Shown here piece after piece: positions 4,731-27,908 of a stretch of DNA of 46,816 nt (positions within the stretch are counted from its first letter, which is position 1; every line of letters begins with the position of its first letter). Both the position numbers and the translations under genes were made by a program. The notes beneath the pieces were generated by a model. That model did no database searches and had not been told where the DNA came from. It saw nothing but the letters and a program-made list of their open reading frames with translations. Origin of the DNA: a virus; IMG/VR virus record IMGVR_UViG_3300037042_002543, positions 1 to 46,816 of that record, one strand, 5' to 3'.

Positions 4731-5369
4731 TCAACGCAACCCCGATACAAATGTTACGGTCATGATAGCCGAAGGGATGGCGGGGCAGAAGGCTGTTGCT
4801 GCTTCCAGTGAAAGCTGTACATGGGTATTACTAGCCGCCCACATGAGTTCAAAGTAGCTGCCCTGCTGCATTGGAAGCACGAAGTTCCAAGCGGCTACAA
4901 CCTCTGCAGCTGTGCCCTGCACGACGAGTTTCGTTGCTGAGTCAGGAATATCCACTCCATCAACACGCGCCCACACATACGCATACGCAGCGCTGGCGGA
5001 GGTCTTGGCAACCTGCAAGGAGAACTGGAAGTTGTAGTGGCCTTCGATGTCCGTGACAAACTTCGTCTTTGGCGTGCCTGTGACCGATACCCCTTCGGAG
5101 TCTGTAGTTGTGTCGAACCTGACAGGATACGCCGTGTTTATTACCGCAGCAGTTTGCGTGGAGGTAGCGTCATAGAACGCCCCGTGGGGCAGTTGTAGCA
5201 GCGTGTTCTGGTTGGTGATGATGACACCAAGCGTCTTCGATAGCTGGTTGAAATACAGGCGCAGCACATTGGCAAACTGATCCTGATACCGGCGTTCGTA
5301 CTCCACTGTACCCAGCGGCAATGCTGGGGGAGCAGGGCTTGTTACAGAGGTGAGGATGGTAAGCATCAA
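4731..5369 (-). CDS. Virion-associated protein of unknown function
   Basis: 212 residues, starting MMLTILTSV and overlapping the upstream gene's stop by 4 nt (ATGA). The N-terminal third has a helical segment ([20 protein letters not shown]), the rest is predominantly beta-like with alternating hydrophobic residues, which would suit a small trimeric fibre or jelly-roll-like virion protein. Its place between the stabilisation-like protein and the giant protein makes a structural role likely. I do not recognise a named family. Confidence 0.65.
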
Positions 5370-7459
5370 CCCCCCCTGCGACCATCAGGGCGCAAATCTA
5401 TTCTGGGGTAGCCAAGTTGCCACTGCGTACCTATCGTAGTGCTCTCGATCCTCAAGGACATCTGCCGCGCACGGATGCGGGTATTGATCTGGCCTGTGAA
5501 CTGATCCACATCGTAGCTGCCAATACGGACAACCGGAGCCGAAGCGCTGCCGCCAACCGAAGGTGGAACGGTGTACCCTGAACCGGAGTTCTGCAATGGG
5601 AGCAGTGTCATCGTCACCTGCGGCGTCACAGTTTCATCTGAGCCACGGAACGTCAGGTCAGGCAGCATACGCCATACGAATGCGAAATTGTGTCCGTCCC
5701 CGATGTCGAACTGACTTGATACTATGTAGGAGTTAATTGCCGCATCTGTCGCGCCCTCCCCGTCAACGACGCCGGTTTCCTGATACACAAGCTGGTTGTT
5801 GTACGTTGCGGCAATGGGGGAGTCCTCCAAGCCGGCGTCAAGCCAAGCTGTGCGGCCCATCGTGCCGTAGTACCAGATTTTCTCAAGGTAGTTGTACACA
5901 ACGTAGCGGTCAACCGTAGTGGATTCAGCAGAGCAATAGAACCACCAGACCTCATTGAAGGCTTCGTTGGTCGTGCCAAAAACCTGATACTCCTGCTCAA
6001 GATTTATGTCACTGAATACATACTGCCGCAGATCACAGTTGAGCGTCTGCACCCGGCCATCGTACATATAGAACTTGTTGATCCCCATCCAATAGACAAC
6101 ACCGGATGCCAGCACCACGCTGTTTGGGTGCGTCGAGGAGATATTACCGTCCATGAGCGTAGCGCCCCAGACAAGCGGAGCGCCAAGGTACTGAAGGGAG
6201 TACAGCGAGGTGTCTGTCCAGACCAAGATTTCTTGCCGCACCTGCAGCGCAGAGTAGATTTCAGACCCGTGGGACAAGCGCAAGGAGCCAGCCTGATTTG
6301 TAGCTTGCGGATACCAATCCAATATGTTTTCCTGATCTGACCAGCGGATCAGCATGGGGTCGAGCACCGTGGAGCCAAGCTCATTGCAGCCGAATGCCAG
6401 CGTGAACCGGGAAACGTCAGACACCATCAAATTGTGCTGGTACAGCGGAACGTCCAGAAGGATAGCGATTGAGTTGACCCCAGACCCCGCGCCTGTAACA
6501 TCAACCTCAGTTCCGCCCGGTGTAGTTACGATGGTGGCTACATTCCCCGTGAGAGTCTCGATGTAGTACGTGGTGCTGGCGGACAGTCCAGTGGGCAGCG
6601 CTCCAGTTGTTTGCAGGGTGAAGGACGTTCCAATAGACACTAGGTTTGTCAGCGTCATCTGCGTCGGGTTAGCAACTGTGAACGTGACGACACCCCCCAT
6701 CGAACTGACTGCTACAGCCCGTGTGCCCGTACCTGCACTCGCATCCCAATAGTAGATAGCTGCATAGCGGGGGCCAAAGATCAAATCTTCCCCGTAGTTG
6801 CTCTGCGACCAGAGTCGGATTTCACCACCCGGATACTCGTTGGAGTTGTTCCATGTGCCCTGACCCCACCACCCCGCGCCCCATCCGTAAGCAGGCATTT
6901 GCGTTGCTGGGCCGGTATTGATTTGATAGACCGCTACGACTGCCGCACCGCCGCCTGTGGTCGTTGCGTTTGCTGCGCTGGCAGCTTGAATCTGGAATGA
7001 ATTTGCGCTGGTACTAAGCGTGATCTGGTACTCCCCGTCCAGCCCAAGTCCAGCAACATCCTCGCACCCGCTGAAAGTGACAAAGTCTCCTACATTGGCC
7101 CCGTGTCCTGTGGCTGTTACCGTAACGGTTGTGGACGTATCTACGGTTGCGAATGGGTCTGCGCCAAGGGTTACAGTGGAGCGAATAGGAGTAATGTCGT
7201 AGAACGTACCGTCCCGGCTAACGTAGAACTTCAGGTTTGTCCCAACCCCGATGTACGTGATAGAACTAAGCGTAGTCCATGAAAATAGGGAGCGGCAAAC
7301 GCCAAGGTAGGTGTTGTCAGATACTTTAACCCAACCACCTATTTGCTCGGGAAGGCCGGAACGAAAGCGCACTTTATCGGACTCATACCATTTTCCTTCT
7401 GCCGATAGTCGCGTCCCTTCACGATTTACACCGGGGGCTATCTTAAGTTGCTGGAGCAT
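5366..7459 (-). CDS. Podovirus head-completion/tail stabilisation-like protein
   Basis: 697 residues. The N-terminus, with KIAPGVNREGTR, then WYESDKVRFRSG and PEQIGGWV, matches my recollection of a widespread podovirus family annotated as packaged-DNA stabilisation or tail protein (P22 gp10-like or tail tubular protein B-like). The rest is rich in beta strands and aromatic residues, fitting a beta-propeller-like virion protein; a GWGAGWWGQGTW segment is conspicuous. It begins 6 nt after the endolysin stop, with only a weak GGGA ribosome-binding site. The virion role is likely, the exact position (tail hub or stabilisation factor) is inference. Confidence 0.7.
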   Translation of the reverse strand: MLQQLKIAPGVNREGTRLSAEGKWYESDKVRFRSGLPEQIGGWVKVSDNTYLGVCRSLFSWTTLSSITYIGVGTNLKFYVSRDGTFYDITPIRSTVTLGADPFATVDTSTTVTVTATGHGANVGDFVTFSGCEDVAGLGLDGEYQITLSTSANSFQIQAASAANATTTGGGAAVVAVYQINTGPATQMPAYGWGAGWWGQGTWNNSNEYPGGEIRLWSQSNYGEDLIFGPRYAAIYYWDASAGTGTRAVAVSSMGGVVTFTVANPTQMTLTNLVSIGTSFTLQTTGALPTGLSASTTYYIETLTGNVATIVTTPGGTEVDVTGAGSGVNSIAILLDVPLYQHNLMVSDVSRFTLAFGCNELGSTVLDPMLIRWSDQENILDWYPQATNQAGSLRLSHGSEIYSALQVRQEILVWTDTSLYSLQYLGAPLVWGATLMDGNISSTHPNSVVLASGVVYWMGINKFYMYDGRVQTLNCDLRQYVFSDINLEQEYQVFGTTNEAFNEVWWFYCSAESTTVDRYVVYNYLEKIWYYGTMGRTAWLDAGLEDSPIAATYNNQLVYQETGVVDGEGATDAAINSYIVSSQFDIGDGHNFAFVWRMLPDLTFRGSDETVTPQVTMTLLPLQNSGSGYTVPPSVGGSASAPVVRIGSYDVDQFTGQINTRIRARQMSLRIESTTIGTQWQLGYPRIDLRPDGRRGG

Positions 7460-9653: not shown

Positions 9654-11426
9654 TTAAGATTGATAAGTTATAGTAAATTCAACATAAGCGGCACTTCCCA
9701 AAATGGCAACATTTGAATTTGTAGTTGTTGTTCCAGAACTGTTATTTGCTTGAAAATATATTGAAGTATTACCTGTGTTGGAATAAGCACATAGTGCCAA
9801 AACACTTGTTGCTAGATTTGAAAAATAACGAACACAACCCACTGCATTTGTTCCAGATTGAACGGGTGTAAATGGATTACCTGAAATTATGGTAGCTGAA
9901 CCACCACCTAATGTAGTAATACCAAATGTTGCCCAAATAGTTACTAATCTACCTACCTTAATATAATATCCTGATTGGGCGGAATATGAGGTGCTACTAT
10001 TTGCAGGTGTCCAAGTCCCTTCTTCATAATCATCCAGCGTATTCGCATTAGCCGATGCGTTCTGAGTTGCGGGGAAGGTGATGCCGGTGCCTACAACAGG
10101 TACAGCAGAATCAAGTGCTAAGGAGTAGCCTTCTTTTGCTGTTATTTGCCGCTTTGCTCCAACGGATAGAACCACATACTCATCTGCCGTTCTAATGTCA
10201 AGCCCATCTGCATTTCCGTCAAACCCACCTACAATTACGTTATTCGATCCAGAGGTGACGTAGTATCCTGCGCCTGCTCCTGCAGCACTGCCAAATCCAA
10301 GAAAGGTATTACCTGAACCTGTAGAAAGAGAGTATCCCACCGTTGCACCAAACAGGCTGTTACCGTTACCTGTAGCGTCCTTGCCTGTGGCCGCACCAGT
10401 GAACGTATTAAAATTATTTCCACTGGTAAGCGAAGCGCCTGCTAAATACCCAATCATTGTCTGATAAGCACCGGTAGGATTTGCCGCCAGAGCACCTACA
10501 CCAACCACCGTATTTGTATCAACCGCCCCCGCGCCTTTGCCCACAGTCAATCCTTGAATCGTTCCCGCTCCCGTCGCACTCAGCGTAGTAAAGCTAGCAG
10601 GTAACGTACCGTTATTCAGCGTAGTTTGTGTAACCGCAGTGCCAGTTACGCCAGCAGCAGGTAGGCCAGTTGCGTTTGTCAGTGTGATTGAACTTGGCGT
10701 ACCGCCTGCACCGTTCAGGACTACTGGTGCGCCTGCGGAGCCTACTGCTACTGCTAGGGCTGTGGCTACTCCTGTGCCGGGGGTTACGCCTGCCCAAGTA
10801 GTCAGGTCAGCATCGTATGCCTGCACGGTAGTACCGATAGCTGCTGCTACAAGTGCAGTACCTGTAACGCCTGCCGGTGGGAGTCCTGTTGCATTTGTGA
10901 GCGTGCCTGAACTTGGAGTGCCTAACGCGCCACCATTAGCGACGAGGGCACCCGCAGAGCCTACATTTACGGCCAATGCGGTTGCGACCCCTGTACCGAG
11001 TCCTGTGATGGAGCCAACTGCCATTACGGAGGCCGCGACAACCACGAAATCAGAGCCGTTCCAAGCGATCAGCGCCTTGACTCCGGTGGCAATCGTGACC
11101 CCCGTTGTTGCAGCGCCTTTGACGACGATGGAGCCGGTACCCGCATTGATGACGATGTACGCCTTGGTGTGCGATGGTACGGTGATGTTCCGGGGTGTTG
11201 CCCCGTTGCTTGCTGTCCAGAGGATAACCGCGCTACGTGCTTGATTCGCTGCACCATCGGTTACTGACAGGGTTACGTCCGCATCGGCGGACAGTGTGGT
11301 TGTGCCTGCGATGGAGGAATCGAGAAGCTCCGTTACTCCCGTATTGACGGTGCTCCCCCACGTACCTGCAAGTTCGCCCGTAGTCGGAAGCGTGAGTCCG
11401 AGGTTGGTGGTATATGTACTCGCCAT
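9654..11426 (-). CDS. Tail-fibre-like receptor-binding protein
   Basis: 590 residues with AGGAG upstream. The N-terminal 50 residues (STYTTNLGLTLPTTGE, then GTWGSTVN) match a module I recall at the start of many environmental phage fibre proteins and presumably attach it to the virion. The middle is Gly/Ala/Thr-rich with repeated G-hydrophobic-ATAL and TNATGLP segments, typical of a fibrous shaft. Around residues 330-400 are Asn/Gly-rich turns (TGSGNTFLG, SGSNNVIVGG) like head-domain repeats of fibre proteins. A short DDYEEGTWTP motif precedes the C-terminal beta domain, which probably recognises the host. Trimeric assembly is inferred. Confidence 0.75.
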   Translation of the reverse strand: MASTYTTNLGLTLPTTGELAGTWGSTVNTGVTELLDSSIAGTTTLSADADVTLSVTDGAANQARSAVILWTASNGATPRNITVPSHTKAYIVINAGTGSIVVKGAATTGVTIATGVKALIAWNGSDFVVVAASVMAVGSITGLGTGVATALAVNVGSAGALVANGGALGTPSSGTLTNATGLPPAGVTGTALVAAAIGTTVQAYDADLTTWAGVTPGTGVATALAVAVGSAGAPVVLNGAGGTPSSITLTNATGLPAAGVTGTAVTQTTLNNGTLPASFTTLSATGAGTIQGLTVGKGAGAVDTNTVVGVGALAANPTGAYQTMIGYLAGASLTSGNNFNTFTGAATGKDATGNGNSLFGATVGYSLSTGSGNTFLGFGSAAGAGAGYYVTSGSNNVIVGGFDGNADGLDIRTADEYVVLSVGAKRQITAKEGYSLALDSAVPVVGTGITFPATQNASANANTLDDYEEGTWTPANSSTSYSAQSGYYIKVGRLVTIWATFGITTLGGGSATIISGNPFTPVQSGTNAVGCVRYFSNLATSVLALCAYSNTGNTSIYFQANNSSGTTTTNSNVAILGSAAYVEFTITYQS

Positions 11427-22172: not shown

Positions 22173-22577
22173 TTAGGCGCGGGTAATACCGCGAGGATCC
22201 TGTACAGTCGCCTCGACAGAATCATCATTGATAAGCCGAAACTCTTTACCGTGGATCTTGATCCGTGTGCCCGTATTAGGGCGTACCAGAACAAAATCCC
22301 CTGCCTTACAGGATGGACCGTTTGGAAACCGCTTCGCGTCCGCGTAGGCGTCCGGGCCGAGCTTCACTACAAACAACACTGGGGATAAAACCTCTTCAAA
22401 CCGCATGGTCTCGCCCGCCTTTACTAGCCCGCTCTCTCCAAACTCCTCATCAATGTCTGGAAGGACACAGAGTAGGTGGAAGGTAGCAGGATCAGGGATC
22501 TGGTGAGCTTTCTCTTCAGCCGATACGGGAAGTACAGTAGATGTTGCACCGTCTTGACTTATGAGTATTTCAGTCAT
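22173..22577 (-). CDS. Phage-encoded GroES-like co-chaperonin
   Basis: 134 residues with a Cpn10-like layout: a first strand with LLCVLPDI, a loop (EEFGESGLVKAGETM) in the position of the GroEL-binding mobile loop, then FVVKLGPDAYAD, and VLVRPNTGTRIKIHGKEFRL plus INDDSVEATV at the end. This would cap host GroEL and help fold the capsid protein, as T4 gp31 does. It overlaps the upstream small gene by 8 nt. The gene lies between portal and scaffold genes, fitting a head-assembly job. Assignment is by motif recall. Confidence 0.82.
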   Translation of the reverse strand: MTEILISQDGATSTVLPVSAEEKAHQIPDPATFHLLCVLPDIDEEFGESGLVKAGETMRFEEVLSPVLFVVKLGPDAYADAKRFPNGPSCKAGDFVLVRPNTGTRIKIHGKEFRLINDDSVEATVQDPRGITRA

Positions 22578-22761
22578 TATTTTCTTTCTCTATGCGTTGT
22601 TTGAGGTCTTGCAGGTTGTAATTGGCATGGTCAAGACCCCTAATAACACCAACCAATTCTCGATACTCAGCGTAGTCTTTGACCCCGCCAGTAACAAGTT
22701 TCTCTACCGCTTGGGTGCGGAACTCATCATTTTGCTTCTTTAGTAATTCGATTTCGGTCAT
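22570..22761 (-). CDS. 63-residue helical protein
   Basis: A small charged helical protein (TEIELLKKQNDEFRTQAVEK, later VIRGLDHANYNLQDL) with a strong AAAGGAG before ATG 22761. I recall similar short proteins next to phage co-chaperonin genes, but no function. It overlaps the co-chaperonin start, so the two are likely made together. Confidence 0.7.
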   Translation of the reverse strand: MTEIELLKKQNDEFRTQAVEKLVTGGVKDYAEYRELVGVIRGLDHANYNLQDLKQRIEKENND

Positions 22762-22773
22762 TATCTGCTCCTT

Positions 22774-22875
22774 TCATAGTTCTATTGGCAAAACTGATAC
22801 CTGTGTAATCGTTGGGACCAACTCGGGGTCCCTATAGCTAGCTATCTGGACAAATATCTTGTCTTCTTTGCTCAT
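22774..22875 (-). pseudogene. Truncated N-terminus of a GlcNAc-type glycosyltransferase
   Basis: A 33-residue reading frame whose ATG overlaps the portal stop (ATGA). It starts MSKEDKIFVQIASYRDPELV and continues PTI, matching the signature start (FVxIASYRDPEL-PTI) of the glycosyltransferase family often annotated GlcNAc transferase (PF11397). After residue 23 the similarity ends and the frame stops within 10 codons. The whole catalytic region is absent, so it is a deletion remnant unless the short peptide gained a new use. Confidence 0.68.
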
Positions 22876-25478
22876 TCAGTGTCCCCCGGCTTATTCGACT
22901 TCGCCAACCGCTGCTGCTCCTGCATCTGGCGGAACTTCTGCCGGGCCATCAACTCCGTATGGGTCAATTTCTGCCGGGCGGTCATGCCGCCATGCGCCAT
23001 TTTCTGCCCATGGATCTGGTGCTGTTGCTGCAAATTCGCCTGATGCGCCTGTTGTGCTCGCATCATCTCCTGCATGTGTTTCTGCTGGAGCATCTGCTGT
23101 TGACCCTGCTGCGCCTGCATCTCCTGCGTGTGACGCTGCTGCACCATCTGTGGCGTTTCCTGCGGGGCCCCGGCCTGCTGCGCCTTAAGTGCCAACTCAC
23201 CCTGCTTGATCTGCAACTCACCATCAACCTTCTTGGCCTTGGTTGCGGAGTCCTGCTCTTTAATCTGCAGTTCTTTCTGCTGCATCTGGATGAGCGGATC
23301 CTGCTGCATCTGCTGGCTCTTGGCCTGTTGCGCCATCGCCATATTCTGCTGCAGAAGCTGGACCGACGCCTGCGCTACCAACTGTGACAACTGAACCTCC
23401 ACCTCTTCCGGAAGCTGCTCGTTCGGCTTGGGCATCGTGACACCCATCTGCTCCTCGATCTTCTGGCGATACAGGTACGCTAGGTGCTCAGCGATGTGCG
23501 ACTGAATTGCCGCCATCATCTGCTGCGCCATCGGGTTCTGCCCCATCTGCTGGGCAATCATCGGATCCTGCATGAACGTAGAGTGCGCGGCAATATGTGC
23601 GTCATGGTCCTGATAGATGAACGCCTTTGTGGGCTCCCCCTTGAGGAACGACATATTCTCGCTAATAGGGTCACGGGGAGTCTGGTCTTCATCCAGCGGG
23701 ACTAACTTTTCCGCGTTCTTGATCCCCAATACCTCAATCATCTGCCGATGTAACTGCGGCAAGTCGTAGATCTGCGGAGCGCCTTGTGACAACTGGATCA
23801 CGGCCTGATACTGCATGATCCGCTGGGCCATCGTGCTGCTGTTGGGATCACTAACCGGAATAACCTCAACCGTATCGTAGTCCTCCTGCTTGGCCGACGC
23901 CTCCCCATGCTCTGGCGTATAGTCGTAAGTCGAGGGGGTATGGTCGCGGATGATGGCCTTCAGAAGCTTGAACTCCTGCTTCATGGAGTTGTGGACCCGC
24001 GCCTGAACTGCGCCCATGATCTTCAACTGCCGCTCCAGCAACGCCAGCGTGGTCCCCACGGGCGATTGAGCGCTCATGTCACTGACCTTCATATCAGCAA
24101 TCGACCCTAATCTGCGGCCTTCGTCAGTAATCTGGTTTAGAAGGGCAAGCAGTACCTGACTCGGCTCCTTGTACGGGAGCGTCATGATGTTGTCTTTGAT
24201 CGCCCCGCTCGGGATATCCACATCACGGAACTCGCCCGGAGCAATGGGTGTATCGTCTCCCTTCACTCTCAGGCCACGCGATTTCAGCCCGCCCGGTAGA
24301 TTCGATAGCGTACCTGCGTCAACAAGTTGCCGGATCAGTGAGGTCCCTGCCCTAGCGTAGCCGCCAATAATATGGATGAGGCCCATACCGTAAGCACCAA
24401 ACCCGGGAATGTAGTCGTACTGCACAAGATGCTGGCGCTTCTGGTGCGTATCATCCCCATCTTCCCAATTCCGGTAGATTGCCAAGACCTTGTTGGTGCC
24501 CTTATCGATGGTGACAATGTACGGGATCGCAACCTCATCATCACTCTCGTACCCGGGCATATCCCAATCAACCTGCACCTCATAAAGCTGGTAACGGTCA
24601 TCGTCGGTCAACGAATACCCCTGCTCGTCGGCCTTCTTCTTCTCCACGTCCGTATGTGTAGCCACCGGCTCGCCAAGGTCCACCTCTCTGTAGAACCCCG
24701 CGACCTGCAGTTTCTTGATCTCGTTCTTTGTCTTGCGCATGACGTGCGTAACACGCTCAGCAGTCCTCGCTCCGCTTGACCCGTAAGGAATAATTACGTC
24801 CTCGGCGGGAATAAAGATCGCTGTCTGTCTTGCTAACCCCGGGTCATAATAAACTTTCTTGAACGCCGCGCCCGCCAACCCGAGATTAAACAGTAATCTC
24901 TCATGTTCCGGTCTGTACTCTGGCATCTCTTCTGTCAACCGGAAATTCATGTCATCTCTAACGCGCTCAGCAGCCTCTTCTTTCAGCCTGTCGATAGCGC
25001 CAATAATTTCTGTCTTTACTGGACCCGCTGCAGGGAAAGTCTCAGTGATCGTCTCGGACTGAAACCGTATCGCTGCCTCTGTCAGAATAGTCGAATAAAC
25101 ACCACACGCACCATTCCAAGGTTGTGTTCTTTCTTCATATCTCATCCCCAGAACCTCTAACCCTTTTACATAGGTTTCTGTCCAATCTTTTCTAGACGAA
25201 ATATCACTATCCACTAACTCTACAATCTCACCCGCGAGCTTCTGTAACTCGCTTTCTTCCATCTCTTCGGCTAGATTAGAATTAAACTCTCCCTCAGCTT
25301 TATCATCACCGGGCTCCAAGTCAATCTCCAACCCGTCGACCCCGATCTGTACACCCTCCGGGTCCTCAATCTGAATCTCTATCGCGGGCGATGAGTCATC
25401 CATCATCCCCATCATGCTGCCGAGACCCAAAAGCCCCGCTCCGGGGTCCAGTGCTTTATCAATACTTGAGGTAGCCAT
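22872..25478 (-). CDS. Portal protein
   Basis: 868 residues, AAGGA before ATG 25478. After an acidic N-terminal 70 residues comes a core with YVKGLEVLGMRYEERTQPWN and a long central region with YQLYEVQVDWDMPGYESDD, RNWEDGDDTHQKRQHLVQYD and KSRGLRVKGDDTPIAPGEFR, as in large P22-like podovirus portals. The C-terminal 200 residues are extremely Gln/Met-rich and helical, suggesting an extended barrel or tube. It forms the dodecameric DNA gate at one capsid vertex and docks the terminase, encoded next door. Confidence 0.88.
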   Translation of the reverse strand: MATSSIDKALDPGAGLLGLGSMMGMMDDSSPAIEIQIEDPEGVQIGVDGLEIDLEPGDDKAEGEFNSNLAEEMEESELQKLAGEIVELVDSDISSRKDWTETYVKGLEVLGMRYEERTQPWNGACGVYSTILTEAAIRFQSETITETFPAAGPVKTEIIGAIDRLKEEAAERVRDDMNFRLTEEMPEYRPEHERLLFNLGLAGAAFKKVYYDPGLARQTAIFIPAEDVIIPYGSSGARTAERVTHVMRKTKNEIKKLQVAGFYREVDLGEPVATHTDVEKKKADEQGYSLTDDDRYQLYEVQVDWDMPGYESDDEVAIPYIVTIDKGTNKVLAIYRNWEDGDDTHQKRQHLVQYDYIPGFGAYGMGLIHIIGGYARAGTSLIRQLVDAGTLSNLPGGLKSRGLRVKGDDTPIAPGEFRDVDIPSGAIKDNIMTLPYKEPSQVLLALLNQITDEGRRLGSIADMKVSDMSAQSPVGTTLALLERQLKIMGAVQARVHNSMKQEFKLLKAIIRDHTPSTYDYTPEHGEASAKQEDYDTVEVIPVSDPNSSTMAQRIMQYQAVIQLSQGAPQIYDLPQLHRQMIEVLGIKNAEKLVPLDEDQTPRDPISENMSFLKGEPTKAFIYQDHDAHIAAHSTFMQDPMIAQQMGQNPMAQQMMAAIQSHIAEHLAYLYRQKIEEQMGVTMPKPNEQLPEEVEVQLSQLVAQASVQLLQQNMAMAQQAKSQQMQQDPLIQMQQKELQIKEQDSATKAKKVDGELQIKQGELALKAQQAGAPQETPQMVQQRHTQEMQAQQGQQQMLQQKHMQEMMRAQQAHQANLQQQHQIHGQKMAHGGMTARQKLTHTELMARQKFRQMQEQQRLAKSNKPGDTE

Positions 25479-25487
25479 GATTCATCC

Positions 25488-27908
25488 TTAATAGAACGCC
25501 GCATCCCGGCGCTTGAACAATTTAACTTCTTCCTTCTCGTCAGAGGGTAATCGTAAAAACCCCCCCGCCCGGAAGCGCATCAGCGCCAGCGTGGTCGCGT
25601 CCACCAAGTCATCATGCTCGCCTGACGGGAACGCCCCGATCTCATCAACCAATTCTTCAGCCCAACGAGTACGTGGTAACCACACTTTGCCCGACGCAAT
25701 TATGTCCGACACGGAGTTCAAGCGGGCGATTTTGTCCTGCCCCCTGCTCGGCGTGTACTCCTGCACCGGGATCCCCATGGCCCGCAACTCATATATCAGC
25801 GGCGCTCCGGTAGCCTTCTTCTCTACCAACACCCCATCAGGTTCCCACTCGTTGTACTCGTTAAGCACGTCCCGCTTCAACTCAATCCACTCAACCCGCT
25901 TCTTGTACGTGTTGAGCAAGACGATGTTGGGTAGGCTATGGTCCTCGTCGTTGTAGAAAATCCCCCAAGTTGTGCCCGCTGAGTAGTCAGCCCTGTTGTT
26001 CTTCTCAAACGCCGTATCCCATGTCTGCAGAATATAGTCACAAACCGGGGGCCGCTCGTGGTCCCACCACTTCCACCAATCCCGCTTGATAATTGCTGAC
26101 TCATTACCTATTGGATTCTGCTGGTACTGCGCCTGCCACTTGGAATTTGGCAACTCCGTCCGCAACGCCTCCAACTCCTGCAACGACCAGAACTCTGGCC
26201 ATAAGGGTTTACCCGAGGGCATGATCGCAGGGAACTCAATCACCTCCCACTGCTCGCCACCCCGCCCGGCGGCTGCTTTCAGCACCTGCCCCGTCAGATC
26301 TCGCATCGCCCAGCGCGTATTGTGGCTTACAACTCCGTTAGCAATGAAGTTCTCGGTACGATCTATCTCGACATCGAATACTTCTTCCTCTCCAGCGGGG
26401 ACTATGCTAACTATTGGGTCCGCTGTGAAGTCGGAGGTATTCTGCAGCGCGTTCAAGAATATACGCTGTCTTTCCGTACCCCACTGCAAGGTTGCAGTCA
26501 TTGCACAGGAGCCCCCGGACTCGCCCGGTAGTGTGGTCATGGTCGATGCAGAGCTTCCCGTTCCAGTGTGCCCTAGTATTCTCTGCTGAAGGCTCCTTGC
26601 CACATACATCACACCTGTTACTACGCTCCGCAACCATCTGGGTGTACTTCTCAACCGTGATTCCGTACCTATGCTTGATACGAGCCGCTCTTGATTGCTC
26701 CGGGGCTTTTGTATACCCTTTTTGCTTAGCGTAGCAGGTAGCGCACATCCCTTTGGATACGGCTGGTTTGTCGCACTGGGAGCAGCTAACTCCTCTCCAC
26801 TTACCATGATGCCCGACTGGGTGTCTAGGAGCGTCGGGGTTTTTTCTGTGATAGCTTGCCGATGACATACAGGCCGCGCAAAGTCCCGGCTTTGTTTGTG
26901 ATCTGGCTGGTCTAATGCATCCTTCGTTGCTACAAGCAACATACCCGGCGCTAGGTTCTTTAGCCTTGTCCATTCCAGTACTCCTTCATTAAGCACGAGA
27001 AACGGATGCCTCTCGTTTGCTTGGAGTATTATACCAGATTGTGTTTGTATCCGGTGTATGGAATCAACACCATTTGACTGCCAATTATTGACCCGTGCAG
27101 TGGTTAACTTACCCTTATCGAACGTAGCCACCATATCTCCGGGGCGAATATCTCGTAACTTAGCGGAAGTACCATCTGCCATGAGTACATCTGTGCCCCC
27201 TACCATGCACATCACAATAATAATCGCCCCGCCCGGCTGCAAACGCTGCCGAGGACCCGACGTATACCACTCTGTAACCTTATCAAACACATCCGGGTTC
27301 GTTGCAGCGAGCGCAGCCTCCTGCTCTGAGTGCGGATCATCAATAATCAGTAGGTTTGCACCCTTTCCAGTGACCGTACCCCCTACACCAATGGCAAAAT
27401 AGTCACCACCCTTGCTCGTATTCCATCTTCCGGCGGCTTTGGAGTCCTGCTGAAGCTCCAAATTCGGAAAAATCTCCTTGTACGCGTCCGAATCGACCAA
27501 ATTCCGCACTTTCCGACCAAAACCCACCGCTAATTCCCCGGTATTTGAGCTTTGGATCACTTTCTTGGCCGGATATTTCCCCAAAAACCACGCTGGTAGC
27601 AGGTAACTCGCAAATTCTGACTTGGTGTGGCGCGGCGGCATGTTGATAATCAGTCTTTTACACTCCCCCCGCACCACTCGCTCAAAGGCAGCGGCCATAA
27701 TCTTGTGGTGCCGCCCGCCGATGAACTCCGGCCACATCTTATGCACAAACCCCATGAACGTATCCTGCGCTTTTTCCTTCTCAAGCATTCGCTCCCGCCG
27801 CTCCAGATCCTGCAAAATCTGATATTTCTGCGCTTCGGGCAACGTGGCTAGCTGCGCCAGTAGCACCTTGAACTCGTGATCCAAAACCTCAACGGTCTGC
27901 TCACGCAT
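25488..27908 (-). CDS. terL: Terminase large subunit interrupted by an intein
   Basis: 806 codons, of which 297 (residues 234-530) are an intein; the spliced enzyme would be 509 residues, a normal size. ATPase motifs: a Walker A-like INMPPRHTKSE (about 88-98) and Walker B LLIIDDPHSEQEAA (about 186-199). The intein sits exactly after AIIIVM, so splicing restores IIIVM-TRWAMRDLTG, the conserved C-motif strand of TerL. The nuclease domain follows, with D631 (QTWDTAFEK) and D766/D767/D770 (EHDDLVDATT). It pumps DNA into the prohead and cuts it. It overlaps the TerS-like gene by 8 nt. Confidence 0.95.
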   Translation of the reverse strand: MREQTVEVLDHEFKVLLAQLATLPEAQKYQILQDLERRERMLEKEKAQDTFMGFVHKMWPEFIGGRHHKIMAAAFERVVRGECKRLIINMPPRHTKSEFASYLLPAWFLGKYPAKKVIQSSNTGELAVGFGRKVRNLVDSDAYKEIFPNLELQQDSKAAGRWNTSKGGDYFAIGVGGTVTGKGANLLIIDDPHSEQEAALAATNPDVFDKVTEWYTSGPRQRLQPGGAIIIVMCMVGGTDVLMADGTSAKLRDIRPGDMVATFDKGKLTTARVNNWQSNGVDSIHRIQTQSGIILQANERHPFLVLNEGVLEWTRLKNLAPGMLLVATKDALDQPDHKQSRDFARPVCHRQAITEKTPTLLDTQSGIMVSGEELAAPSATNQPYPKGCALPATLSKKGIQKPRSNQERLVSSIGTESRLRSTPRWLRSVVTGVMYVARSLQQRILGHTGTGSSASTMTTLPGESGGSCAMTATLQWGTERQRIFLNALQNTSDFTADPIVSIVPAGEEEVFDVEIDRTENFIANGVVSHNTRWAMRDLTGQVLKAAAGRGGEQWEVIEFPAIMPSGKPLWPEFWSLQELEALRTELPNSKWQAQYQQNPIGNESAIIKRDWWKWWDHERPPVCDYILQTWDTAFEKNNRADYSAGTTWGIFYNDEDHSLPNIVLLNTYKKRVEWIELKRDVLNEYNEWEPDGVLVEKKATGAPLIYELRAMGIPVQEYTPSRGQDKIARLNSVSDIIASGKVWLPRTRWAEELVDEIGAFPSGEHDDLVDATTLALMRFRAGGFLRLPSDEKEEVKLFKRRDAAFY
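26319..27209 (-). mobile_element. TerL intein with HNH gene nested out of frame
   Basis: Residues 234-530 of the terL frame. It begins at Cys234 with CMVGGTDVLMADGTS (block A) and VRPGDMV-like RPGDMV; block B is ILQANERHPFLVL, with the Thr usually three before the His replaced by Asn. Block F is EEVFDVEIDRTENFIANG and block G VVSHN, followed by Thr531 as the +1 residue. These are all parts needed for splicing. The 165-odd residues between the halves have no protein-like motif in this frame, because the same DNA encodes an endonuclease VII-like protein in another frame. Splicing is predicted, not shown. Confidence 0.92.
26407..26973 (-). CDS. Endonuclease VII-like HNH protein nested inside the intein
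   Basis: 188 residues, encoded on the same strand as terL but in a different frame. Three cysteine clusters: C14/C19 with C32/C35, C64/C67 with C77/C80, and C121/C124 with C157/C160. The last encloses a catalytic LCIDHDHTTGRVRGLLC (D144, H145, D146, H147) followed by N161, the recombination endonuclease VII/HNH signature. AAGGAG lies 7 nt before ATG 26973, and TAA-TGA in this frame lie five codons upstream, so it cannot be an extension of the intein. Its borders coincide with the two intein splicing halves. Presumably the homing enzyme of the intein. Confidence 0.88.
   Translation of the reverse strand: MDKAKEPSAGYVACSNEGCIRPARSQTKPGLCAACMSSASYHRKNPDAPRHPVGHHGKWRGVSCSQCDKPAVSKGMCATCYAKQKGYTKAPEQSRAARIKHRYGITVEKYTQMVAERSNRCDVCGKEPSAENTRAHWNGKLCIDHDHTTGRVRGLLCNDCNLAVGYGKTAYILERAAEYLRLHSGPNS

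Follow-up and report, generated by a model that had tools for sequence, protein, structure and literature searches.

A short frame between the portal and small-protein genes

The window analysed here is the whole 46,816-nt stretch of virus record IMGVR_UViG_3300037042_002543. On its minus strand, a portal gene is followed by a 33-codon open reading frame, hereafter the stub, and then by genes for a small protein and a GroES-like co-chaperonin (Table 1). The co-chaperonin also matched Pfam Cpn10 below the cut-off (E = 0.004), and the 63-aa protein has no significant Pfam or PHROG family. By tblastn, the window portal is matched in 18 of 50,697 phage records. As an earlier note on this DNA had proposed, the start codon of the stub overlaps the portal stop, and the frame is a real one that ends abruptly, with similarity to its family gone by codons 23–25. 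Its TGA stands 12 nt ahead of the ATG of the 63-aa gene, in a spacer that contains AAGGAG. A perfect 12-nt palindrome (ATAGCTAGCTAT, 22834–22845) lies within the IASY codons of the stub and, in full or as its core, also occurs in three of the loci fetched for comparison (given L numbers here; L110, L150 and L154).

Table 1 Features of the portal junction in the window and of cargo genes in related loci
Feature	Coordinates	Strand	Evidence or remarks
Portal protein gene, 868 aa, upstream neighbour	22872..25478	(-)	PHROG 1216 portal, E = 2.6e-18
Stub, 33-codon ORF	22774..22875	(-)	33 aa, MSKEDKIFVQIASYRDPELVPTITQVSVLPIEL; ATG on portal stop as ATGA
Stub residues 3–23, homologous to the N terminus of PF11397-type glycosyltransferases	22807..22869	(-)	Similarity to L153, exact 18-aa matches
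Break-point region, codons 24–25, where family similarity ends	22800..22806	(-)	Residues beyond PT[IL]
Tail: stub codons 24–33, stop and 12-nt spacer with AAGGAG	22762..22806	(-)	Sequence
63-aa small-protein gene, downstream neighbour	22570..22761	(-)	Matched at least partly in 121 distinct related contigs
GroES-like co-chaperonin gene, after the 63-aa gene	22173..22577	(-)	PHROG 3188, E = 7e-6
Oxygenase gene with common ~70-residue N-terminal domain	L010:3579-4469
Oxygenase gene with common ~70-residue N-terminal domain	L088:4828-5538
Oxygenase gene with common ~70-residue N-terminal domain	L059:3209-4207

The stub is homologous to the start of PF11397-type glycosyltransferases

The stub had been read as opening with the signature of GlcNAc-type glycosyltransferases, and two independent profile libraries bear this out over its first 25 or so residues. 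PHROG 24687 (glycosyltransferase) matched residues 5–25 at positions 2–22 of 409 (E = 1.7e-5). Pfam PF11397 matched residues 7–26 at profile positions 2–21 of 352 (E = 3.1e-4), with a score of 20.8 bits that falls 0.2 bits below the curated cut-off of 21 bits. The N-terminal signature of the stub, IFVQIASYRDPELVPTI, is thus in register with the start of both profiles (positions 2–22). In a six-frame search, the stub was the sole PF11397 match in the whole record (E = 7.4e-5, 17.5 bits), and the same search returned no PF11397 match in 14 control genomes.

Sequence comparisons with fetched loci agree with this assignment. A profile of 95 N-termini, taken from fetched relatives of full length, gave the stub 45.3 bits, against 5.9 for the runner-up among 1310 window frames and a best score of 10.8 bits in 100 shuffled windows; this test is partly circular because those sequences were fetched with stub-derived patterns, of which the Pfam and PHROG matches are independent. 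By tblastn, the stub aligned with 160 of at least 172 pattern-fetched viral loci at E up to 1e-3, all of which had been fetched by the motif itself, and the alignments mostly span residues 3–7 to 23–26. The segment KIFVQIASYRDPELVPTI is identical in 22 viral contigs, after which their sequences diverge from the stub. The enzyme of L153 is 95% identical to the stub over 21 aa, in a separate alignment the two agree at 20 of 25 residues, and the best DNA matches among the fetched loci were L150 (91% over 35 nt) and L122 (86% over 44 nt). A chance likeness would suit so short a frame with a Pfam score just under the cut-off, but the PHROG match, the absence of any other PF11397 match in the record, the 18 residues shared with 22 viral contigs and the L150 match refute it for practical purposes. 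The PF11397 and PHROG 24687 glycosyltransferases correspond to CAZy family GT60, of which a characterised member places GlcNAc on a hydroxyproline of Dictyostelium Skp1.

Most of the enzyme is missing

Complete frames of the stub's subtype in the fetched loci are mostly 395–430 aa long. Set against enzymes of 400–430 codons, the stub retains ~23, with roughly 370–400 gone. After PT[IL], the residues TQV occurred in none of the 23 loci that extend past its break-point. The catalytic body, the remaining ~330 profile positions, was not found elsewhere in the record by the six-frame PF11397 search. Since the frame ends at 33 codons without the catalytic part, the stub is not a working member of the family.

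Short blastn gave no significant match in the fetched loci for the tail, the 45 nt that lead from the break up to the next ATG. This bears on the idea that the true genome keeps a whole gene that assembly or sequencing skipped, as could happen in an assembled IMG/VR contig such as this one. With such a tail, the sequence is more than a direct fusion of two known ends, and the neighbouring genes are intact and in frame; we therefore regard an artefact as very improbable. NYERSR*, read in another frame of the tail and ending in TAATG at the next start, was considered as the 3' end of the lost gene and rejected, six residues being too few. RYEKNI or RYEKKL forms the C terminus of several complete family members. 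Early-ending PF11397-type frames were also seen in L172 (38 aa), L246 (129 aa) and L262 (34 aa), and may be further truncated genes or frameshift errors.

The portal junction is a variable cargo site

Relatives of the window were drawn from the best 80 of 456 loci in a portal scan and from 70 loci in a scan with the 63-aa gene. Merged by contig, these gave 121 contigs with the 63-aa gene, 119 of which also hold the portal end; L323 and L324, in which the portal end is absent, were left out. Five named distant phages (L082–L086) and 18 duplicate loci of counted contigs were dropped before counting. Also outside the 119 are L028 and L059, which carry cargo on contigs from which the 63-aa gene is absent, and L019, L033, L041, L050 and L055, whose sequence runs out at the portal or shortly beyond it.

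The junction is empty in 94 of the 119 contigs, where the 63-aa gene overlaps the portal stop or starts within 8 nt of it, and cargo lies between the two genes in 23. This cargo comprises oxygenase-type genes alone (172–173 aa, or 374 aa; nine contigs), a family-2 glycosyltransferase (seven), one or more oxygenase genes followed by an intact PF11397 gene (five: L010 and L088–L091) and a JmjC/cupin gene with a 280-aa gene (two). In the other two contigs (L040 and L047) the portal frame is interrupted, and they were scored neither empty nor as cargo. In both, the rest of the portal can be read as a following frame of 250–259 aa, which may reflect a sequencing error or a real split. The portal/63-aa junction is a variable cargo site in this phage group.

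The stub peptide occurs in none of the 119 related junctions, and thus is not a short peptide conserved among relatives. Among the best 80 of 456 relatives, no portal more than 85% identical to that of the window was found, and the nearest, at 84.7% identity or less, do not carry the stub. These counts weigh on the reading of the stub as a functional small gene or a leader peptide with a borrowed glycosyltransferase start, kept for translational coupling or binding. Its spacing to both neighbours is good, with AAGGAG ahead of the next ATG, and its conserved residues are undecayed, as the likeness to L153 attests; set against a site that holds no insert at all in 94 relatives and the stub in none, this reading seems improbable to us.

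The same survey separates two expectations of the earlier note. The gene that relatives were expected to keep on the 3' side of the portal is indeed there, as intact PF11397 genes directly before the 63-aa gene in L010 and L088–L091. As for the proposed clean deletion join to the leader of the next gene, that leader is not an ancestral one, as the 63-aa gene lacks a leader at the portal stop in the 94 empty junctions; a single deletion is a possible route of the loss. In L018 and L021, whose junctions are empty, a P4H-like oxygenase (58.9 bits to PF13640 in L018) and a 38-aa frame lie between the 63-aa and GroES-like genes.

Intact PF11397 genes and their oxygenase partners

The intact PF11397 gene of L010 scored 150.7 bits (E = 9.6e-44), over the cut-off, with its best stretch at profile positions 98–350 of 352; phmmer found no solved structure for this enzyme. 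All five junction genes are 317–319 aa long and belong to an IASYCDxQL subtype, and their contigs were also recovered by the independent scan with the 63-aa gene. ORF tables and alignment suggest that L088/L089 and L090/L091 are each a pair of closely related genotypes, so the five cases may be three independent ones. Only 3 of the 50,697 phage records, each 320–385 kb long, matched an intact PF11397 enzyme, in a search whose query began eight codons early and even so matched over 99%; isolates are thus of no help here.

These genes share with the stub their family and their flanks, the portal upstream of the cargo and the 63-aa gene after it, and differ from it in length, in subtype and in the oxygenase gene or genes ahead of them. 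They end a cassette of two or three genes, directly before the 63-aa gene, whereas the stub stands directly at the portal stop. Identity between the stub and the intact junction genes is 48–53% over 19–21 residues, and between these genes and the stub-type enzyme of L153 32–35%. In a tblastn search of 152 fetched loci, including the window's own L001, the only matches to the stub beyond L001 at E up to 1 were the five junction glycosyltransferases (E = 0.008–0.063).

The oxygenase partners matched 2OG-FeII_Oxy_3 (PF13640; cut-off 27 bits) at 53.2 bits for the 297-aa protein of L010 and 29.2 bits for the 237-aa protein of L088. Read from the sequence, their candidate iron-binding HxD ... H residues are HFD at 207 with H275 and HSD at 165 with H217, respectively. 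Among other cargo, that of L025 matched Glycos_transf_2 (104.1 bits) and that of L059 Cupin_8 (139.6 bits). The 172-aa gene has 'ferrochelatase' as its best PHROG name, an HTD motif and a sub-threshold 2OG match, and it matched no Pfam family at E ≤ 0.01; by judgement, we class it as putatively oxygenase-type. The 280-aa protein had no Pfam or PHROG match, and single-sequence structure prediction of the L068 copy gave a mean pLDDT of 31. In that copy (L068:6336-7175), which follows the JmjC gene, VLDGDMF resembles by eye the DxD motif of glycosyltransferases.

Three catalytic types of oxygenase encoded directly after the portal have a ~70-residue N-terminal domain in common (Table 1). This domain is 47% identical between L010 and L088 and 31–32% identical between these and the JmjC protein of L059, at E-values no higher than 3e-12 when three sequences were compared and no higher than 1.7e-8 across 12 cargo proteins. 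It is possibly a docking domain, and its distribution would reflect domain shuffling at one site. None of the 12 cargo proteins of relatives matched the window at E up to 0.1.

Origin of the stub

We consider it likely, with good confidence, that the stub is what remains of the 5' end of a PF11397-type cargo gene of ~400–430 codons that once stood whole between the portal and the 63-aa gene. The history we propose is that the longer subtype was acquired separately at the portal junction and then nearly all lost. A separate acquisition is probable because the intact junction genes are of the other subtype and follow a 2OG oxygenase; for the same reason they demonstrate that the site accepts the PF11397 family and do not represent the direct ancestor. 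The earlier proposal that an ancestor probably encoded a full enzyme here is partly supported: five junctions hold whole family genes, all of the other subtype.

Several observations count against a truncated cargo gene. The tail is unmatched, no portal above 85% identity turned up among the relatives, and the Pfam score is slightly short of its cut-off. The five intact genes are of another subtype and sit at the end of a cassette, and none of the loci of the stub's subtype (at least 172 pattern-fetched and 17 new) matches the window portal or the 63-aa gene. The stub might instead never have been whole here, its fragment having arrived by illegitimate or mosaic recombination and been tolerated because translation continues. 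Such an arrival would fit a junction that carried no intact gene of this subtype in any locus examined, a highly variable site with cargo in 23 of 119 contigs and a tail that matches nothing fetched. Yet a random piece would seldom begin at or near its own start codon, and the stub's ATG sits exactly on the portal stop, as those of whole cargo genes often do; we hold this origin to be unlikely and prefer truncation of a resident cargo gene.

Possible functions of the stub and the cassettes

With 33 codons the stub cannot encode an enzyme, and at most a 33-aa peptide would be translated from it. Ribosomes leaving the portal gene would read the stub and then move on to the 63-aa gene, which has an AAGGAG of its own. 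From the spacing, translation is probably coupled from the portal through the stub to the 63-aa gene, and what is useful in the remainder would be this layout.

In relatives with whole cargo, the 2OG-Fe(II) oxygenase would hydroxylate a protein, to which the glycosyltransferase would then add a sugar. Gene content thus suggests that the cargo likely modifies protein, with activity and substrate both read from the genes. On the earlier question of whether virion proteins or host-surface sugars are modified, the pairing of PF11397 genes with oxygenases tilts towards protein hydroxylation followed by glycosylation, and family-2 glycosyltransferases at the same site keep host-surface sugars among the possible targets. 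Collagen repeats, a candidate substrate, were not seen by eye in window proteins 4731-5369, 5366-7459 and 9654-11426, and a BclA_C match in the window fell below the cut-off.

More speculatively, the junction could be a plug-in site for a two-step cassette that the window phage has dropped, with an oxygenase to hydroxylate a protein of the virion or host and a PF11397 enzyme to cap it. We offer this as a tentative and rather doubtful extension. In such a scheme, the ~70-residue docking domain would be joined to P4H-like, second 2OG-type or JmjC catalytic domains, and the 280-aa protein would perhaps also be a capping glycosyltransferase. The cassette would then parallel, in phages, the hydroxyproline glycosylation of the Skp1 type. 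The stub alone is an ordinary remnant of a known family and the cargo site is the more useful result; the intact loci L010, L088 and L090 are concrete candidate places for phage protein hydroxylation and glycosylation.

Related systems

Skp1 of Dictyostelium and Toxoplasma undergoes a prolyl hydroxylation/glycosylation pathway, as the available parts of accounts such as PMC3515798 describe. There a prolyl hydroxylase acts before a glycosyltransferase that modifies the new hydroxyl, a possible model for the cassettes of relatives. That pathway is eukaryotic with Skp1 as its substrate; in the phage cassettes such chemistry would be a prediction from their genes. HTVC023P-type pelagiphages are distant kin (the window portal is 42% identical to that of HTVC027P). 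According to the available part of PMC9599517, their auxiliary genes include glycosyltransferases and 2OG-Fe(II) oxygenases of eight kinds, and their 'ferrochelatase' always adjoins an oxygenase; that part mentions neither placement at the portal junction nor an oxygenase–glycosyltransferase pairing. The literature searched, as far as its text was available, described neither cargo genes at the portal junction nor PF11397 cargo in phages.

An intein in the neighbouring terminase gene

The terminase gene (25488–27908, minus strand) carries an intein (PF14890, 50.4 bits). The intein stretch also contains, on the same strand but in a different reading frame, a 188-aa endonuclease VII ORF (26407–26973, minus strand; PF02945, 68.4 bits; PHROG 2914, E = 1.5e-27), and the intein frame is open throughout. 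Both halves of the terminase were matched in 111 fetched loci; there the halves lie at most 4 nt apart, and the intein had no match. The available part of PMC11855218 describes an HNH insertion hidden out of frame within a phage methylase, without splicing domains; compared with that insertion, the window terminase also has a detected intein.
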